Assembly: GCF_010119615.1 (NCBI RefSeq)
Contig: NZ_QOVG01000001.1
Location: 372,001-436,000, forward strand
DNA length: 64,000 nt
Direction: 5' to 3'
From: Pseudoxanthomonas gei
Lineage (GTDB): Bacteria; Pseudomonadota; Gammaproteobacteria; Xanthomonadales; Xanthomonadaceae
Below the pieces are notes generated by a model. It ran no database searches and was not told the origin of the DNA. It saw only the letters and a program-made list of their open reading frames with translations. Below are positions 1 to 11,481 of this stretch, piece after piece. The position numbers were made by a program, and so were the translations under genes. The stretch's first letter is position 1, and the number at the start of each line of letters is the position of its first letter.

Positions 1-1145
1 AGTAACCGAACAAGCTGACTTGCGAGCCAGTCATAGCTCAGAGCCTGCGCTGGAGGTGAAAACATAAAGCCATACCTGCGATCGCTAAGCTTCGTATCCA
101 ATCGCGACAGAAACCGAGTTAGCTTGCCCTCCCACTCACCGACTTTCTCGCCTTTACCATCAGCACGCATTGCCTTGTCGGTATTGTCTTTCTCGAGAAG
201 CTTAACCAAATCATCAATTGAATATGGAATTGGCGAATCGACCGTGAATGTTTTAGCCACTTCCAGCTGATTTTCAACCTTCAATGTTTGCTCTTTTAGA
301 CTTCTCACGTGATGCGTAAATCGCGAGGCTTGGTTTGGTGCATTCTGATCACTTCGATCCACTATCATGGATAGCATCTCGTCGCGATTCAGAAGCCAAT
401 AAGGCAGGAAGAGCACATCATCACTGGGTTTTTCTAAATCCCCAGGCCCCGCTATCCTCACCCGAGTTGCAAATCCTTTCTTTGCAGGATCTGCAAGTGG
501 CGCGTACTCGCCATGCATGTCAAATACTAAAATATTTGGATATTTAAGTTTAGATGCTCGCTCGAGTATCAATGCCACCGCATAGCTCTTTCCCGAACCT
601 GTACTTCCGAGAATGGCTGCATGTCGCTGGAAGAATTTATCACCACTAGCGATGGCATCTGCAGTCCTATCAGCGACAAATGAGCCCAGCTTCAATCTTT
701 CGTTCTCGGGATATTCCGCCCCTAACGTGCTCATGAATCTCTGCAGATTTCCGGCCTCAATGACATAACACTCACGATCAATTTGAGGAAAGCTGTCAGC
801 GCCTCGCTTGAATGTATTCTTTTTTTCGCCGTCAACAGTTCGGAACGTACCTACTAACGCACCTCGAACCAGATCGGTTGGTACGGCTTCGAGAAGAATA
901 TCCTCCTCCCCGATAGGGAGTTCTGTCGGCAGGTCATCACGAAGACTCCTTGTTACCCGCTCAGTAATCGCAATCAAGAACTCTCGCTCAGTACTTCCTC
1001 GGATGGCGATTAAATTTCCAATCCCAATTCGCGTTAGGAGGACCGAGTTTGAAACATCGATCGTTACGCGACTAGTATCAACTGACACGACTTTTCCGAG
1101 CAAATCTTCCTTCTCGAACTGAAGCGCTGCGGGCACGTCATTCAT
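1..1145 (-). CDS. HerA-family ATPase of a SIR2-HerA defence pair (C-terminus beyond window edge)
   Basis: Partial gene. I translated it by hand; 381 codons are visible before the left edge. The N-terminus (about residues 10-65) reads like the HAS-barrel of HerA proteins. A clear Walker A, GSTGSGKS, lies at residues 180-187, and the strand ending VFDMHGEY (about 207-213) matches the HerA/FtsK Walker B region. HerA proteins are hexameric ATPases that assemble with nucleases or, in defence systems, with SIR2 or DUF4297 effectors. The ATG overlaps the stop of the upstream SIR2 gene (ATGA), so the two are translationally coupled. Base composition is clearly lower in GC than in the genes right of 4 kb, suggesting horizontal acquisition. 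The arginine finger and C-terminal region cannot be checked. Confidence 0.88.
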   Translation of the reverse strand, partial: MNDVPAALQFEKEDLLGKVVSVDTSRVTIDVSNSVLLTRIGIGNLIAIRGSTEREFLIAITERVTRSLRDDLPTELPIGEEDILLEAVPTDLVRGALVGTFRTVDGEKKNTFKRGADSFPQIDRECYVIEAGNLQRFMSTLGAEYPENERLKLGSFVADRTADAIASGDKFFQRHAAILGSTGSGKSYAVALILERASKLKYPNILVFDMHGEYAPLADPAKKGFATRVRIAGPGDLEKPSDDVLFLPYWLLNRDEMLSMIVDRSDQNAPNQASRFTHHVRSLKEQTLKVENQLEVAKTFTVDSPIPYSIDDLVKLLEKDNTDKAMRADGKGEKVGEWEGKLTRFLSRLDTKLSDRRYGFMFSPPAQALSYDWLASQLVRL

Positions 1146-2176
1146 GGCTCAAAAACCTCCGTGACAAAATATTTAACATCCCATAATTTCAGTTTCGGCA
1201 AAAAAATATGGTTGCGATCAATTATTACTCGACTGCCTTCGACGCCATCTCTAAATTCACGATCAATGGCCATTACGTTCCCATACTTACTGGCGAGATC
1301 CTTAGCCGAATTTGATAGTTCGTACGTTAAAAGCAGCGTGGGCTTGCCGCCTCGTATCGCGGGAGACAAATGAGTCTCCAGATGATCATCATTGAATCCA
1401 TATCCGATGATCAGAAAGCGGCTCGCGCGATCTATGGCGTCATTTGCCCGTGCTCGATGCTGATCAAATGGGCTTTCATATCCATTGCGAAACTTGTTCT
1501 GTCCAGGCGTAATAATTAGTCTGGCAGCACTTTTCAGCTCGCCTTGATAACTTACGGGCACCCCGTTTCGCAAATACCAATCGAGGCTTCCATGGGGCTT
1601 GTAGACGAGCGCCCGAGTTTTGTACTGAAGTATTACTCTTGGTTTCTTATACGTCGCATTTCGACAAAAGCTTAAATGACTCTCCCGCTCATTAAGCGAT
1701 CCAGCAAATCGGCCCGAGAACATCGTATCCACTCCGAGGCCCGCCTCCTCAACCGCGACCTCAATTAGCCGATCATAGTTGGTAGTAATAATTGGCAGCC
1801 CGGAGAAGGGTTTCAGCATGTGTGCTAGCAGCGGAGTAAGGCGCAGAGTCCGCCTCCCTTCGAACACCTCCGAGATTACCGAGCGCTCAGCCTCCGCAAA
1901 AAATACACCTGTCTCGGCGGAGATAGCGGCTTCTAAACGTTGCGACGGTGCCTTCTGAAGCAGCGCCGCCTCTAGACCCTTCTCTTGTATAAGCGCAACT
2001 ATTTCATTCCAATCCTGTGCTTCATTGGATTCGGCAACGATGGTCTGGCACAGATGTGCCGCCAGGTCGCGCATTCCCGGCAAACCCTCTGCACACGAAA
2101 GTCCTGAGCCGACCACCAAGATGAGCCCATCGCTAAGGTGGGCCTGCAGCCGTGTCTTCAGTTCATGCAGCTCCAT
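1142..2176 (-). CDS. SIR2-like NADase, effector of a SIR2-HerA antiphage pair
   Basis: 344 aa. SIR2-fold motifs are in order: GSGLSCAEGLPG at 23-34 (NAD-binding loop), TTNYD at 131-135, the catalytic-type KPHGSLDW with His195, and IIGYGFNDDHLETHL near 256-270. This pattern is typical of bacterial defence SIR2 proteins, which hydrolyse NAD+ on infection, rather than of protein deacetylases; no zinc-binding Cys quartet is visible. The ATG is preceded by a near-ideal Shine-Dalgarno, AGGAGGT. The stop overlaps the start of the HerA gene, so a two-gene operon is clear. GC content is low compared with the rest of the window. Established: SIR2-HerA pairs act as one complex in phage defence. Inferred: this copy is active, since all visible key residues are present. 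Confidence 0.88.
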   Translation of the reverse strand: MELHELKTRLQAHLSDGLILVVGSGLSCAEGLPGMRDLAAHLCQTIVAESNEAQDWNEIVALIQEKGLEAALLQKAPSQRLEAAISAETGVFFAEAERSVISEVFEGRRTLRLTPLLAHMLKPFSGLPIITTNYDRLIEVAVEEAGLGVDTMFSGRFAGSLNERESHLSFCRNATYKKPRVILQYKTRALVYKPHGSLDWYLRNGVPVSYQGELKSAARLIITPGQNKFRNGYESPFDQHRARANDAIDRASRFLIIGYGFNDDHLETHLSPAIRGGKPTLLLTYELSNSAKDLASKYGNVMAIDREFRDGVEGSRVIIDRNHIFLPKLKLWDVKYFVTEVFEP

Positions 2177-3057
2177 GAAAACTTACCTCCTAACTCAATG
2201 CATGTCTGTCTAGGGCTTCTACGCCATCTCGCAACCATTCCTAAATTTCCGACCGCTCCTCAAACTTCCCCTCCGACAACGCTCCCTCGCTCTACAGCCA
2301 CCTGAACCGCCGCAGCTGCTGTGCAGGGCACTCGTCCTCGGCCGATGAAGTCGTACTCGCGCAACAACTGGCCGGAGCGCGGACTCTAGTTCCCGGATCA
2401 GGCGCGGACAGTGACATTACCGATCGCCTGCACACTCCACCTCTTGCAGACCAGCATCCACAACGTGATGCGCCCGAACCAGCGCGCCACTCAGCGCGAC
2501 CCGATTACCAGCTACCAGCACGACAACCTGGCTGGACCTGCGCCCGCATAGCTCACCGCTACCCATCCCCCGCCCGACCACTTCCACCACAGGCTCGCAT
2601 TGCGTAGCCACTAGCTGCGCCCTGGCAGTGACTGCCGGTAGCAGCTGATCTGCGTGTAGGGCACCGAAAGGGAACGGCGTCCCGCACCGTCCTCCAGCGA
2701 GTACTGCACCTCGTCTTCCCCCAACACGTACCGGATACGGTTCGAATGACGGCTCTGCTTCATTTCCACGGATAGCTCCCCAGCTTCGTTGGAATTCGTG
2801 CACGAGGCACGGTGCCCTACAGCGGGGACACGCGACGGCTCCCCCCGCCGGAGCTTGGCCTGTTTTGATGTCCGTGGACCGGATTGGCGGCCTCTGCCGT
2901 CTAGGAATAATTCTTGGGGGTATACGCGTCGCGTGGTGGTGACGCCGTCCGGCCCGGGTGTCGCCAGCGCGCGGACGACGGCGAACACGACTGGCGGCGT
3001 CACGGGGCTGGGAGGCCATCCAAGCTCACGAAGACTTCGTGCCGGGTCGGCGACCCG
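2177..3057. other. gene-poor stretch upstream of the SIR2-HerA pair
   Basis: About 880 bases between the SIR2 start and the first repeat array. Composition shifts from the low GC of the defence genes to the high GC of the chromosome near 2220-2420. Open frames here overlap one another and do not resemble known proteins. The only stretch that looks protein-like is the short frame at 2611-2763, listed separately. The strong SIR2 ribosome-binding site lies at 2181-2187; I could not identify a convincing promoter. This may be an eroded junction of the acquired island. Confidence 0.4.
2611..2763 (-). pseudogene. possible remnant of a small protein (50 codons)
   Basis: A 50-codon frame beginning MKQSRHSNRIRYVLGEDEVQ and ending CYRQSLPGRS. 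The alternation of charged and hydrophobic residues in its first 35 positions looks like a real beta-rich domain, which then stops abruptly; a neighbouring frame continues open to 2417 without recognisable similarity. I do not recognise the family. It could be the 5' fragment of a frameshifted gene or chance coding in GC-rich DNA. Confidence 0.2.
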
Positions 3058-3288
3058 GAACGTGGGGTCGCCGAGCCCACGCGTGGGGTTGCGAAGCCCG
3101 CGCGTGGGCTCGGCAAGCCGGAGCGCGGGGTTGCGGAGTCGGCACGCGGGGTCGCGGACCTCACGCGCGGGGTTGCGGAGCCGGCGCGCGGGGTCGCGGA
3201 CCTGACACGCGGGGTCGCGGACCCCGCACGTGGGGTTGCCGAGCCGGAACGCCAGGTCACGGAGCCCGCGCGCGGAGTTGCAGAGCCC
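3058..3288. repeat. tandem array, 11 units of 21 bp
   Basis: Eleven consecutive imperfect units, each exactly 21 bp, of the type GCGCGCGGGGTYGCGGASCYS. Because the period is a multiple of three, the plus strand stays open and would encode heptapeptides such as ARGVAEP and TRGVADP. There is no start with a ribosome-binding site and no domain attached, so I treat it as a minisatellite, not a gene. A second array with the same period but a different sequence lies at 37503-37797. Confidence 0.85.
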
Positions 3289-3297
3289 GAGCTTCGG

Positions 3298-4060
3298 ATG
3301 TGGCGTGGGTGCGCTTGCGTTGTGGGCTGGGTCCCGGCGTTCGCCGGGATGACGGTGTTAGTTGTGGGCGGCGACGGCGCTTCTAGGAGCGATGCGGGTC
3401 GCGACACACGCCCCGCCTTCCCCGGTCGTCATCCCGGCGCAGTCCGGGATCCAACTATGAGAGAGGAGGTGCCTGGAGCATGGTCGCGCCAGACGCACCG
3501 GATGTGGCGTGGGTGCGCTTGCGCTGTGGGTTGGGTCCCGGCGTTCGCCGGGATGACGGTGTTGGTTGTGGGCGGCGACGGGGTTTGTAGGAGCGATGCA
3601 AGTCCGTAGGGCGGGTCTTGACCCGCCATTGCCATGTGCCCGCCTGCGATGGCAACCGAGCGGCCCGCCCTCTCTGATCGTCATCCCGGCGGACGCCGGG
3701 ATCCAACTTTGAGGGAGGAGGTGCGTGGAGCATGGGCGCGCCCGACGCACCGGGTGTGGCGTGGGTGCGCATGTGCTGCGGGTTGGGTCCCGGCGTTCGC
3801 CGGGATGACGGTGTTGGTTGTGGGCGGCGACGGCGTTTGTAGGAGCGACGCGAGTCGCGAAGCACAGATTGCCTGGTTGCCGCGTTGGCTGGAGGCCAGG
3901 ATTTCCTGGCTTCGCGACTTGCGTCGCTCCTACAGGGGGGCGCGGCGTTGGCCGGGTGCGCTTGCGCTGTGGGTTGGGTCCCGGCGTTCGCCGGGATGAC
4001 GGTGTTGGTTGTGGGCGGCGACGGGGTTTGTAGGAGCGACGCGAGTCGCGAAGCAGGCAT
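3298..4060. repeat. cluster of four dispersed repeats (about 85-100 bp) carrying REP-type palindromes
   Basis: Near-identical copies begin at about 3298, 3501, 3758 and 3950. Each contains the palindrome CCCGGCGTTCGCCGGG followed by ATGACGGTGTTGGTTGTGGG. Between copies lie two related segments (about 3420-3500 and 3670-3757) with the mirror-type palindrome, GTCATCCCGGCG...CGCCGGGATCCA, and AGGAGGTGC...GAGCATGG. This class of palindrome is common in intergenic DNA of Xanthomonadaceae. All open frames here are repeat-derived. Confidence 0.8.
3839..3934. repeat. REPIN-type element (inverted REP pair)
   Basis: Two inverted copies of a roughly 26-bp REP (GTAGGAGCGACGCGAGTCGC type) at 3839-3863 and 3909-3934 with one mismatch between arms. 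Same family as the elements at 4029, 33857 and 39248. Such paired REPs are mobilised by RAYT transposases encoded elsewhere; none is in this window. Confidence 0.8.
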
Positions 4061-4125
4061 TGTCTGATTGCCCGCCAGGTTGGAGGCCATGGTTTCGTGG
4101 CTTCGCGACTGGCGTCGCTCCTACA
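4029..4125. repeat. REPIN-type element (inverted REP pair)
   Basis: Arms at 4029-4054 and 4100-4125, same REP family as 3839-3934. The spacer is similar in length and partly in sequence (TTGGAGGCCA...), so the two neighbouring elements look like duplicates. The segment 4126-4246 that follows is GC-rich with no gene seen. Confidence 0.8.
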
Positions 4126-4246
4126 GGGGCCGCGGCGTTGGCCGATGACGGCGGTCGGTCGGCTTCACCTGCGTTGGGCGGCGTCGGGGGTGCGGGATGG
4201 CAATGGCGGGCCGGGGCCCGCCCTATGTTGCTTCCCGGTTGCCCCG

Positions 4247-7851: not shown

Positions 7852-10800
7852 TCACATATTCCGCCGGTATTCCCCGCCCACGTCGTAAAGCGCATGGCTG
7901 ATCTGGCCCAGGCTGTGGGTCTTGACCGCTTCCACCAGCGCCTCGAACACGTTGCGGCGATCACGCGCCGTGGCCTGCAGGTAGCCCAGGCCGTGGCCGT
8001 CGTGGACCTCCTGGTCTTCCGATTCCACCACGTGGCCGTGCGAGGTCTCGCCGGCCGGGGCCAGCGCGTTGCGCGACTGCTGCCAGCCGAGCACGTTGGC
8101 GATCTGCTGGCCCTTCTCTTCCTCGGTCGAACGGATCAGTTCGATCTCGGTGATCACTTCGCCGGCGTGCTCGCGCGGCAGGAAGGTGTTGACGCCGACC
8201 AGCGGCAGGCTGCCGTCGTGCTTTTTGTGTTCGTAGTACAGCGACTCTTCCTGGATCTTGCCGCGCTGGTACATGGTGTCCATGGCGCCGAGCACGCCGC
8301 CGCGTTCGCTGATCGCCTCGAATTCCTTGTACACCGCTTCTTCCACCATGTCGGTCAGGTAGTCGACGGCGAAGCTGCCCTGCCACGGGTTCTCGATGAA
8401 GTTGAGCCCCAGTTCCTTGTTGATGATCATCTGGATGGCCACGGCGCGGCGCACGCTTTCTTCGGTGGGCGTGGTGATGGCTTCGTCGTAGGCGTTGGTG
8501 TGCAGCGAATTGCAGTTGTCGAACAGCGCGTACAGGGCCTGCAGCGTGGTGCGGATGTCGTTGAACTGGATTTCCTGCGCGTGCAGCGAGCGACCCGAAG
8601 TCTGGATGTGGTACTTCATCATCTGGCTGCGCTCGTTGGCGCCGTAGCGCTCGCGCATGGCGCGGGCCCAGATGCGGCGGGCGACGCGGCCGATGACCGT
8701 GTATTCCGGGTCCATGCCGTTGCTGAAGAAGAACGACAGGTTGGCGGCGAAGTCGTCGACCTTCATGCCGCGCGCCAGGTAGTACTCGACGATGGTGAAG
8801 CCGTTGCTCAGGGTGAAGGCGAGCTGGCTGATCGGGTTGGCCCCGGCCTCGGCGATGTGGTAACCGGAGATCGACACCGAATAGAAGTTGCGCACGCCGT
8901 TGTCGACGAAGTACTGCTGGATGTCGCCCATCATGCGCAGTGCGAATTCGGTGCTGAAGATGCAGGTGTTCTGCGCCTGGTCCTCTTTCAGGATGTCGGC
9001 CTGCACGGTGCCGCGCACGGTCTTCAGGGTCTGCGCCTTGATCCGCGCGTAGGTCCCGGCATCGACCACCTGTTCGCCGGTCACGCCCAGCAGGCCCAGG
9101 CCCAGGCCGTTGTTGGTCGGCGGCATTTCGCCGTGGTAGACCGGACGCTGGCGGCCTTCGAACAGCGCTGCGATTCTTGCTTCCGCCTGCCTCCAGCGTT
9201 GTTCGTCCTCGCGCAGGTACAGCTCCACCTGCTGGTCGATGGCGGTGTTCATGAACATCGCCAGGATCATCGGCGCCGGGCCGTTGATGGTCATCGACAC
9301 GCTGGTGGTGGGCGAGCACAGGTTGAAGCCCGAATACAGCTTCTTCATGTCGTCCAGCGTGGGGATGTTGACGCCTGAGTTGCCGATCTTGCCGTAGATG
9401 TCCGGGCGCGGCGCCGGGTCCTCGCCATACAGGGTGACGCTGTCGAAGGCGGTGGACAGGCGCGCGGCCGGCTGTCCGACGCTGAGGTAATGGAAGCGCC
9501 GGTTGGTGCGTTCGGGCGTGCCTTCGCCGGCGAACATGCGGATGGGATCTTCGCCGGTGCGGCGGTACGGATACACGCCACCGGTGTAGGGATAGCTGCC
9601 CGGCAGGTTTTCCTTGCCGAGGAAGGTCAGCAGCTCGCCCCACGACTTGTAGGTGGGCGCGGCGATCTTGGGAATCGGCTGGTGGCTGAGCGAGGTGGTG
9701 TAGTTGTCGCCGGTCACCGCCTTGCCGCGCACCTCGTAGCTGAAGTGCTCGTCGGTGATCGACTTCAGGCGCTGCGGCCACTCGCGCAGCAGCTTGAGGT
9801 TCTCACTGGTCAGCGACTGCACGGCGTCCTGGTAGCGCTGGCGCAGGGTCAGCAGGGAGCGGTCGACCTGCGCGTCTTCTGTGGGCAGGGCTTTTGTGGG
9901 AGGGGCTTCAGCCCCGACGCTTGTGCCTGTCGGGGCTGAAGCCCCTCCCACAAGAACCAGATCATCGGCGGCATAAAGATCCAACGCCTTTGGCAGCTTC
10001 CAGTCACCGATCTCGCGCAGCGATTCCCACAGGTGCTGCGCGCGGCTGGCGGTTTCCGCCTGCTGCTCGACGGCCTTGTTGATGCCGCGGCCCTGCTCGG
10101 CGATTTCGGCCAGGTAGCGCACGCGTGCGCCGGGGATCAGCACGGTGGCGCGCGGCTCCTTCAGCGAAGTGTCCAGTTGCGGCGTCCACTTGGCGGCGGG
10201 CAGCGAGAGCTTGTCGCGCAGCAGGCGGCACAGGTTGACGAACATCCAGCTGATGCCGGGGTCGTTGAACTGGCTGGCGATGGTGGGATAGGCCGGCACG
10301 TCCTCGTCGGCGGTCTGGAAGGCGACGCGGTTGCGCTTCCACTGCTTGCGCACGTCGCGCAACGCGTCCTCGGCGCCGCGCTTGTCGTACTTGTTGAGCA
10401 CGATGAGCTCGGCGAAATCCAGCATGTCGATCTTTTCCAGCTGGCTGGCCGCGCCGTATTCGCTGGTCATCACGTACATGGGGAAATCGACCAGGTCGAC
10501 GATCTCCGAATCGCTCTGGCCGATGCCCGCGGTCTCGACGATGACCAGGTCATAGCCCAGTCCCTTCAGGAAACCGATGCAGTCCTTCAACACCCGGTTG
10601 GTCGCGGCATGCTGGCGGCGCGTGGCCATCGAGCGCATGTACACGCGATGGGACCTCAACGAGTTCATACGGATGCGGTCGCCCAGCAGCGCGCCGCCCG
10701 TGCGGCGGCGGGTGGGATCGACCGAGATCACCGCGATGCGCATCTGCGGGAAGCTGGCCAGGAAACGGTTGAGCAGTTCGTCGGTGACCGAGGACTTGCC

Positions 10801-11481
10801 GGCGCCGCCGGTGCCGGTGATGCCCAGGACCGGGGTGGAGCGTGCAGCGTGGATGGATACAGGAGCATGGGCAGGCCCGGCCGCCCATTGCTTGCGCAGC
10901 TTCTCCAACTCCGCTTCGGTGAAGCTGCCGTCCTCGATGGCACTGAGCACGCGGCCTATTCCGATCTCGTCGGCGATATCAGGCATGGAGGGAAGCAAGC
11001 CCTTGCCCTTGGCCATTTCCCCTTCGCGCGCCACCGAGGCGCGCTCGACCACGTCCTCGATCATCTCCACCAGGCCCATCTTCATGCCGTCGTTGGGGTG
11101 GTAGATGCGCTCGACGCCGTAGGCCTGCAGCTCGCGGATTTCCTCGGGGGTGATGGTGCCGCCGCCGCCGCCGAACACGCGGATGTGCGCGGCGCCGCGT
11201 TCGGCCAGCATGTCGACCATGTACTTGAAGTATTCGACATGGCCGCCCTGGTAGGACGACAGCGCGATGGCGTCGGCGTCTTCCTGCAGCGCGGCGCGGA
11301 CCACGTCCTCGACGCTGCGGTTGTGGCCCAGGTGGACCACTTCGGCGCCCTGCCCCTGGATCAGGCGGCGCATTATGTTGATGGCCGCGTCATGGCCGTC
11401 GAAAAGACTGGCGGCGGTGACGAAACGCAGCGGCGTGTGATCGCTCTGCGCGGCGGGAAGATTGGATGCTGGCGTGCTCAT
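7852..11481 (-). CDS. icmF: fused isobutyryl-CoA mutase IcmF (B12-binding, G-protein chaperone and mutase)
   Basis: 1209 aa, somewhat longer than usual IcmF (about 1,080-1,100 aa). Order of parts: cobalamin-binding domain with DGHDAAIN (about 28-35) and [11 protein letters not shown]; MeaI-type GTPase with P-loop GTGGAGKSS at 223-231 and NKYD specificity motif; linker; then the mutase TIM barrel from about 600 to the end. The fusion interconverts isobutyryl-CoA and n-butyryl-CoA using adenosylcobalamin, and some members also act on pivalyl- or isovaleryl-CoA. Residues about 510-530, in the linker, are encoded by a perfect REPIN-type palindrome (9894-9953). No other B12 gene or riboswitch is visible. 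It fits the branched-chain acid genes to its right. Confidence 0.88.
9894..9953. repeat. REPIN-type palindrome translated within icmF
   Basis: Two perfect 25-bp inverted arms at 9894-9918 and 9929-9953 around a 10-base loop; each carries GGGAGGGGCTTCAGCCCCGAC. Total length 60 bp is exactly 20 codons, so the icmF frame is kept and reads a flexible Gly/Ala/Pro/Thr-rich stretch ([19 protein letters not shown]). The same arm sequence is a REP type known from intergenic DNA of related bacteria, so insertion into the inter-domain linker is the simplest explanation. Confidence 0.85.

Follow-up and report, generated by a model that had tools for sequence, protein, structure and literature searches.

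A probable horizontally acquired, two-gene SIR2-HerA anti-phage system in Pseudoxanthomonas gei

The left end of a 64,000-nucleotide stretch of the Pseudoxanthomonas gei genome (G000:C11:372001-436000, the whole of which is called the window here) carries two overlapping genes, sir2 and herA, that we read as an anti-phage defense pair. A first-pass annotation of the window had reported SIR2 motifs (GSGLS, TTNYD, and KPHGS) and a HerA Walker A motif in these genes, and all of them were found, with an overlap of 4 bp between the genes (Table 1). The sir2 gene is complete and encodes a predicted compact SIR2-like NADase of 344 amino acids (aa), and herA runs off the left edge of the window. When the contig was read leftwards, as the annotation had proposed, herA was completed and gave a 587-aa HerA ATPase with Walker A, Walker B, and the HerA C-terminal part. 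The proposed profile search against defense-system models matched both proteins nearly end to end, with PADLOC model PDLC04082 covering residues 1 to 343 of SIR2 (E=1.4e-141) and PDLC04105 covering residues 7 to 584 of HerA (E=5.5e-234). Because these profile matches are nearly full length, chance resemblance is excluded at the level of sequence comparison. In Pfam, HerA matched DUF87 (107 bits) and HerA_C (22.6 bits, with a cut-off of 22); the HAS-barrel that had also been assigned to it was not separately confirmed, with no match to a Pfam HAS-barrel model, although the N terminus is covered by the PADLOC HerA model.

The structure predicted for SIR2 (predicted local distance difference test score, pLDDT, of 93) was compared with solved structures by VIA-align, and the best match was to the solved SIR2-HerA NADases. 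By fold and by profile, the modeled protein groups with the SIR2 proteins of SIR2-HerA systems. Its predicted catalytic residues are N133, in TTNYD, and H195, in KPHGS. Aligned with 87 relatives, N133 was present in 88/88 sequences and H195 in 87/88 (one gap), so that the catalytic Asn and His expected of a SIR2-like NADase domain are conserved, and the GSG loop was present in 81/88 (GTG in six and a gap in one). In HerA, Walker A K186 was found in 87/87 sequences, and Walker B D434 and E435 were found in 86/87, with one gap. Based on the motifs, N133 and H195 are probably the counterparts of N168 and H227 in Vibrio cholerae Nezha, active-site residues that are required there, as is herA, according to PMC11559045. 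This HerA is also a relative of the 4d2i HerA (E=1.3e-32), and deacetylases are found among SIR2 folds, so we considered a housekeeping role in DNA repair for HerA, with SIR2 as a deacetylase and neither protein acting in defense. The repair-type HerA equivalogs (HerA-NurA) fell short of their cut-offs (104.7 versus 800 and 90.5 versus 970), and we regard such a role as extremely improbable.

The ATGA overlap shared by the sir2 stop codon and the herA start codon may couple the translation of the two genes. The arrangement was followed through 87 related loci, comprising 80 of the 113 genome loci detected and all 7 of the viral loci; these are partly non-independent, given that several come from related species. 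HerA lies directly downstream of SIR2 in 86 of the 87, and in the exception, L061, the contig stops 145 bp past SIR2. A 4-bp xTGA overlap joins the genes in 69 of the 86 loci (64 ATGA, 3 GTGA, 1 TTGA, and 1 CTGA). Fifteen of the remaining 17 have spacings of -36 to +7, measured from the limits of the open reading frames (ORFs), and two (L048 and L093) have broken ORFs. Adjacent and co-oriented sir2 and herA genes are kept together in relatives from different phyla, and the next commonest gene family near the related pairs was present in 7/87 loci, as counted from ORFs of 120 aa or more that do not overlap, in fetched flanks of up to 10 kb per side, often less. Given that HerA follows SIR2 in 86/87 loci and that no third family exceeds 7/87, SIR2-HerA looks like a stand-alone two-gene module.

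A PLD-like gene and an Mrr-like gene lie next to herA on the same strand, and we considered a three- or four-gene system that would include them. The PLD-like gene was matched in none of the 37 other genomes of the genus, and its matches to the DrmC and PDC-S69 defense profiles are weak. However, homologs of the PLD-like, Mrr-like, and 271-aa neighbors (E up to 1e-4) were present in 0/87 of the other SIR2-HerA loci, the third-position GC of the PLD-like gene is 0.845 versus 0.46 to 0.51 for the pair, and the Mrr-like gene is resident, lying near the same Pvc16_N gene in two relatives (G025 and G026). A multigene system with PLD and Mrr was rejected on the 0/87 count, and we rate it as very unlikely. 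The overall GC of the PLD-like gene (0.593) is also unlike that of the pair, and because of this difference in base composition it may be a separate arrival. To the left, where further defense genes had been suggested, the island is small, with a PLD-like gene found only here in the genus and, beyond it, the resident Mrr-like gene.

Table 1. Features in and to the left of the window (L002 positions are on the same contig)
Feature	Position	Strand	Remarks
herA, N-terminal 381 aa	window 3-1145 (feature 1..1145)	-	runs off left window edge
herA, complete	L002:13382-15145	-	587 aa; end at L002:13382 = G000:C11:371382, outside window
HerA motifs	residues 180-187; 433-437		Walker A GSTGSGKS; Walker B CDEAH
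sir2 stop/herA start overlap	window 1142..1145	-	4 bp, ATGA
sir2	window 1142-2176	-	complete ORF, 344 aa, predicted compact SIR2-like NADase
SIR2 motifs	residues 23-27; 131-135; 193-197; 258-265		GSGLS (GSG loop 23-25); TTNYD; KPHGS; GYGFNDDH
AT-rich leader	window 2177..2253		77 bp, GC 0.45; between sir2 start codon and edge of G025 homology; right-hand insertion junction
Decayed remnant of 213-aa gene	window 2253..2781	-	~70% DNA identity to intact G025 copy, two reading frames
PLD-like (PLDc_2) gene	L002:12378-13094 = G000:C11:370378-371094	-	238 aa; adjoins herA
Mrr-like gene	L002:11372-12313	-	beyond PLD-like gene
Interval between blocks aligned with G025	L002:12241-16253		~4.0 kb
IS200-like ORF	L002:4342-5157		Y1_Tnp, below cut-off
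Copies of GGCGGGTCAAGACCCGCC	e.g. L002:12260-12364; window 3610-3627		around this locus
Tandem repeats	window 3064-3289; 3763-4144		degenerate 21-bp array, 10.8 copies, and 191-bp unit x2; ~71% GC

The first-pass annotation had raised the question of whether the locus is conserved in relatives, and it is not. The window SIR2 had no match in 37/37 other genomes of the genus, and a search of 100 genomes returned the protein itself and three weak matches outside the genus. HerA matches were found in 8/38 genus genomes, this one included. The best of the others, in G025 and G007, have 38 to 40% identity over part of the protein and neighbor a SIR2 of 405 to 407 aa; the match in G015 is partial (31%), and four further ones are weak (E of 1e-4 to 9e-4). 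A near-empty version of the site was seen in one relative, G025, where the order is Pvc16_N gene, 213-aa gene, and Mrr-like gene. Blocks that align to this contig are 275 bp apart in G025 versus ~4.0 kb here, and the interval here encloses the PLD-like gene, herA, and sir2. The 213-aa gene encodes a membrane protein by eye, with no Pfam match, and its decayed remnant is resident DNA beside the insertion. No sigma-70-like site was found on the minus (coding) strand in the scanned region, where matches were fewer than the shuffle mean. Among the 37 relatives, Pvc16_N and close Mrr-like genes lie near each other on one contig in G025 and G026 only; in G033, they are on separate contigs. In G026, the same interval (L149:3853-6233) holds other genes, encoding DUF6151 and an unassigned 227-aa protein. 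Because the G026 interval carries different genes, the interval between the Pvc16_N and Mrr-like genes looks like a variable site in the three genomes compared.

The base composition of the pair is also distinct. The GC content is 0.505 for SIR2 and 0.490 for HerA versus 0.663 for window positions 2254 to 64000, and third-codon-position GC is 0.51 and 0.46, respectively, compared with 0.89 for the long gene located at window 7852-11481. As had been proposed, AT content is higher in the pair than in the genes to its right, but the boundary is not at 4 kb. The AT-rich stretch stops near 2.25 kb, the 2.2- to 3-kb portion has ~60 to 69% GC and contains the decayed gene, and the 3- to 4-kb portion is repeat-rich at 71% GC. 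In 14/14 loci chosen from the 87, the GC content of the pair was 1 to 16 percentage points below that of the remainder of the fetched locus, and for this reason low GC is partly characteristic of the family. For the same reason, GC alone was not accepted as sufficient evidence of recent transfer; in some of the 14 loci, the difference is only 1 to 4 points. Judged from presence, absence, and synteny, the SIR2-HerA pair is horizontally acquired.

Several other features of the flanks were recorded. No integrase was recognised among 11 flanking ORFs scanned with Pfam, and no tRNA was found by ARAGORN in 54 kb of L002-L004 (50 kb left of the window). The M20 peptidase gene on the left side has close relatives in G026 and G033, on contigs other than that of Pvc16_N, and a haloperoxidase-like gene to the right of the pair is patchy, with a match in 12/38 genus genomes. 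The inverted repeat GGCGGGTCAAGACCCGCC occurs in 27 copies in the genome (14 forward and 13 reverse, with 0 for the reversed control); it is repetitive extragenic palindrome (REP)-like, and its copies are often in opposed pairs. An IS200-like ORF and repeat arrays are also listed in Table 1.

We place at roughly 90% the probability that these two genes alone make up a SIR2-HerA anti-phage system and that they were acquired horizontally. The anti-phage assignment of the first-pass annotation gains support from the nearly full-length PADLOC matches and the fold match to SIR2-HerA NADases, and it was not refuted, given that the HerA C-terminal part is present and SIR2 is absent from the 37 relatives, both of which had been set beforehand as tests. 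By analogy with published work on SIR2-HerA (PMC11559045) and DUF4297-HerA (PMC11291478 and PMC12198126), the pair would deplete NAD and protect against phages. HerA would form a hexameric DNA-motor ring carrying about twelve SIR2 subunits. A cue linked to infection would switch SIR2 on; HerA would probably sense the DNA of the phage or some other change that the phage brings about. SIR2 would then hydrolyze NAD+ in a reaction expected to need N133 and H195. The infected cell would stall or die ahead of phage release (abortive infection).

Some points weigh against this interpretation. The stoichiometry and trigger in this scheme are borrowed from other branches, and our literature search showed no experiment on any SIR2-HerA pair from the 344-aa branch. 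In addition, the NCBIfam equivalogs score below their cut-offs: 31.8 versus 500 for SIR2_antiphage (NF042942) and 180 versus 800 and 297 versus 850 for HerA_antiphage (NF042943/NF042944). The pair in G007, which strongly matches a solved complex (SIR2 versus 8w9l, E=9.1e-77; HerA versus 8wiv, E=4.5e-172), is also below these cut-offs (55 versus 500, 157 versus 800, and 251 versus 850), and because it fails too, the NCBIfam anti-phage equivalogs do not discriminate between branches. We also considered a SIR2-HerA pair directed chiefly at plasmids or other mobile DNA instead of phages, in which HerA would read DNA as it enters and SIR2 would kill the recipient. In favor of this, HerA is a DNA motor, and SIR2 relatives were found in 95/72,556 plasmid records (54 of the 95 typed as conjugative), on 7 viral contigs, and in 0/50,697 phage records. 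However, plasmid carriage says little about the target, and the characterised system acts against phages, according to PMC11559045; we judge a mainly anti-plasmid role to be unlikely. The locus offers a clean example of SIR2-HerA acquisition, with one relative lacking the insert.

By sequence comparison, the window pair belongs to a compact-SIR2 branch that stands apart from the G007 and G025 pairs and from the solved complexes. Members of the branch occur in Pseudomonadota, Planctomycetota, and Bacillota, and the window pair marks a widespread branch; our structure-sequence comparisons found no solved structure closely related to it. The best PADLOC SIR2 model is PDLC04082 here versus PDLC04094 for the other SIR2-HerA branch in the genus, in G007 (L153:6523-9527) and G025 (L154:5930-8973), and all three pairs share PDLC04105 as their best HerA model. 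On a Klebsiella pneumoniae plasmid (NZ_CP076108.1, L155:3962-6838), the annotation joins SIR2 and HerA in one 958-aa fusion protein with SIR2_2 and DUF87/HerA_C domains. In a HerA tree (n=37), three partner-faithful groups were recovered, with compact SIR2 (100/100), DUF4297 (100/99), and long SIR2 (94/88) partners; the tree is unrooted with long branches, and the sister pairing of the groups is not readable from it. The compact-SIR2 group comprises 18 of the 86 fetched HerAs, our own, and three plasmid HerAs, which were collected by homology to the query, making the grouping partly one of construction, and 6/8 of the DUF4297 labels come not from annotation but from tblastn matches of 26 to 31% or from a profile match below its cut-off. 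The top HerA profile scores were to 9c1m (347 bits), 8ziq (317 bits), and 8xau (315 bits). We tentatively suggest, as a possibility that we hold to be well short of even odds, that the compact-SIR2 pairs form a subtype of their own, with a HerA motor nearer to the HerA of DUF4297 nucleases than to that of the solved SIR2 complexes. If so, NADase and nuclease effectors would have been swapped on a shared HerA motor that serves different killing enzymes, and the compact-SIR2 subtype would have its own interface and trigger. One literature query found no published family tree spanning HerA, SIR2, and DUF4297.

Compared with known systems, the window pair shares its two-gene plan with the G007 and G025 pairs and with the SIR2/HerA complex 8w9l/8wld ("PsSIR2"), but the window pair differs from the G007 and G025 pairs in its best PADLOC SIR2 model and is separate in the HerA tree. 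The SIR2-HerA/Nezha systems (Escherichia coli 8j4u, 8su9, and 8sub and V. cholerae Nezha) are more distant, given that the SIR2 of 8j4u has 415 aa versus 344 here and that similarity to 8j4u is weak for both SIR2 (E=1.5e-7) and HerA (147 bits by profile). For DUF4297-HerA (8xau; described in PMC11291478), the window HerA profile gives 315 bits, versus 260 for the SIR2-paired 8wiv and 147 for 8j4u, and the alignment reaches within 3 residues of the C terminus; however, the partner of that HerA is a DUF4297 nuclease, and the partner here is a SIR2. SIR2-HerA is an already known type of system, to which the window pair adds an intact member.
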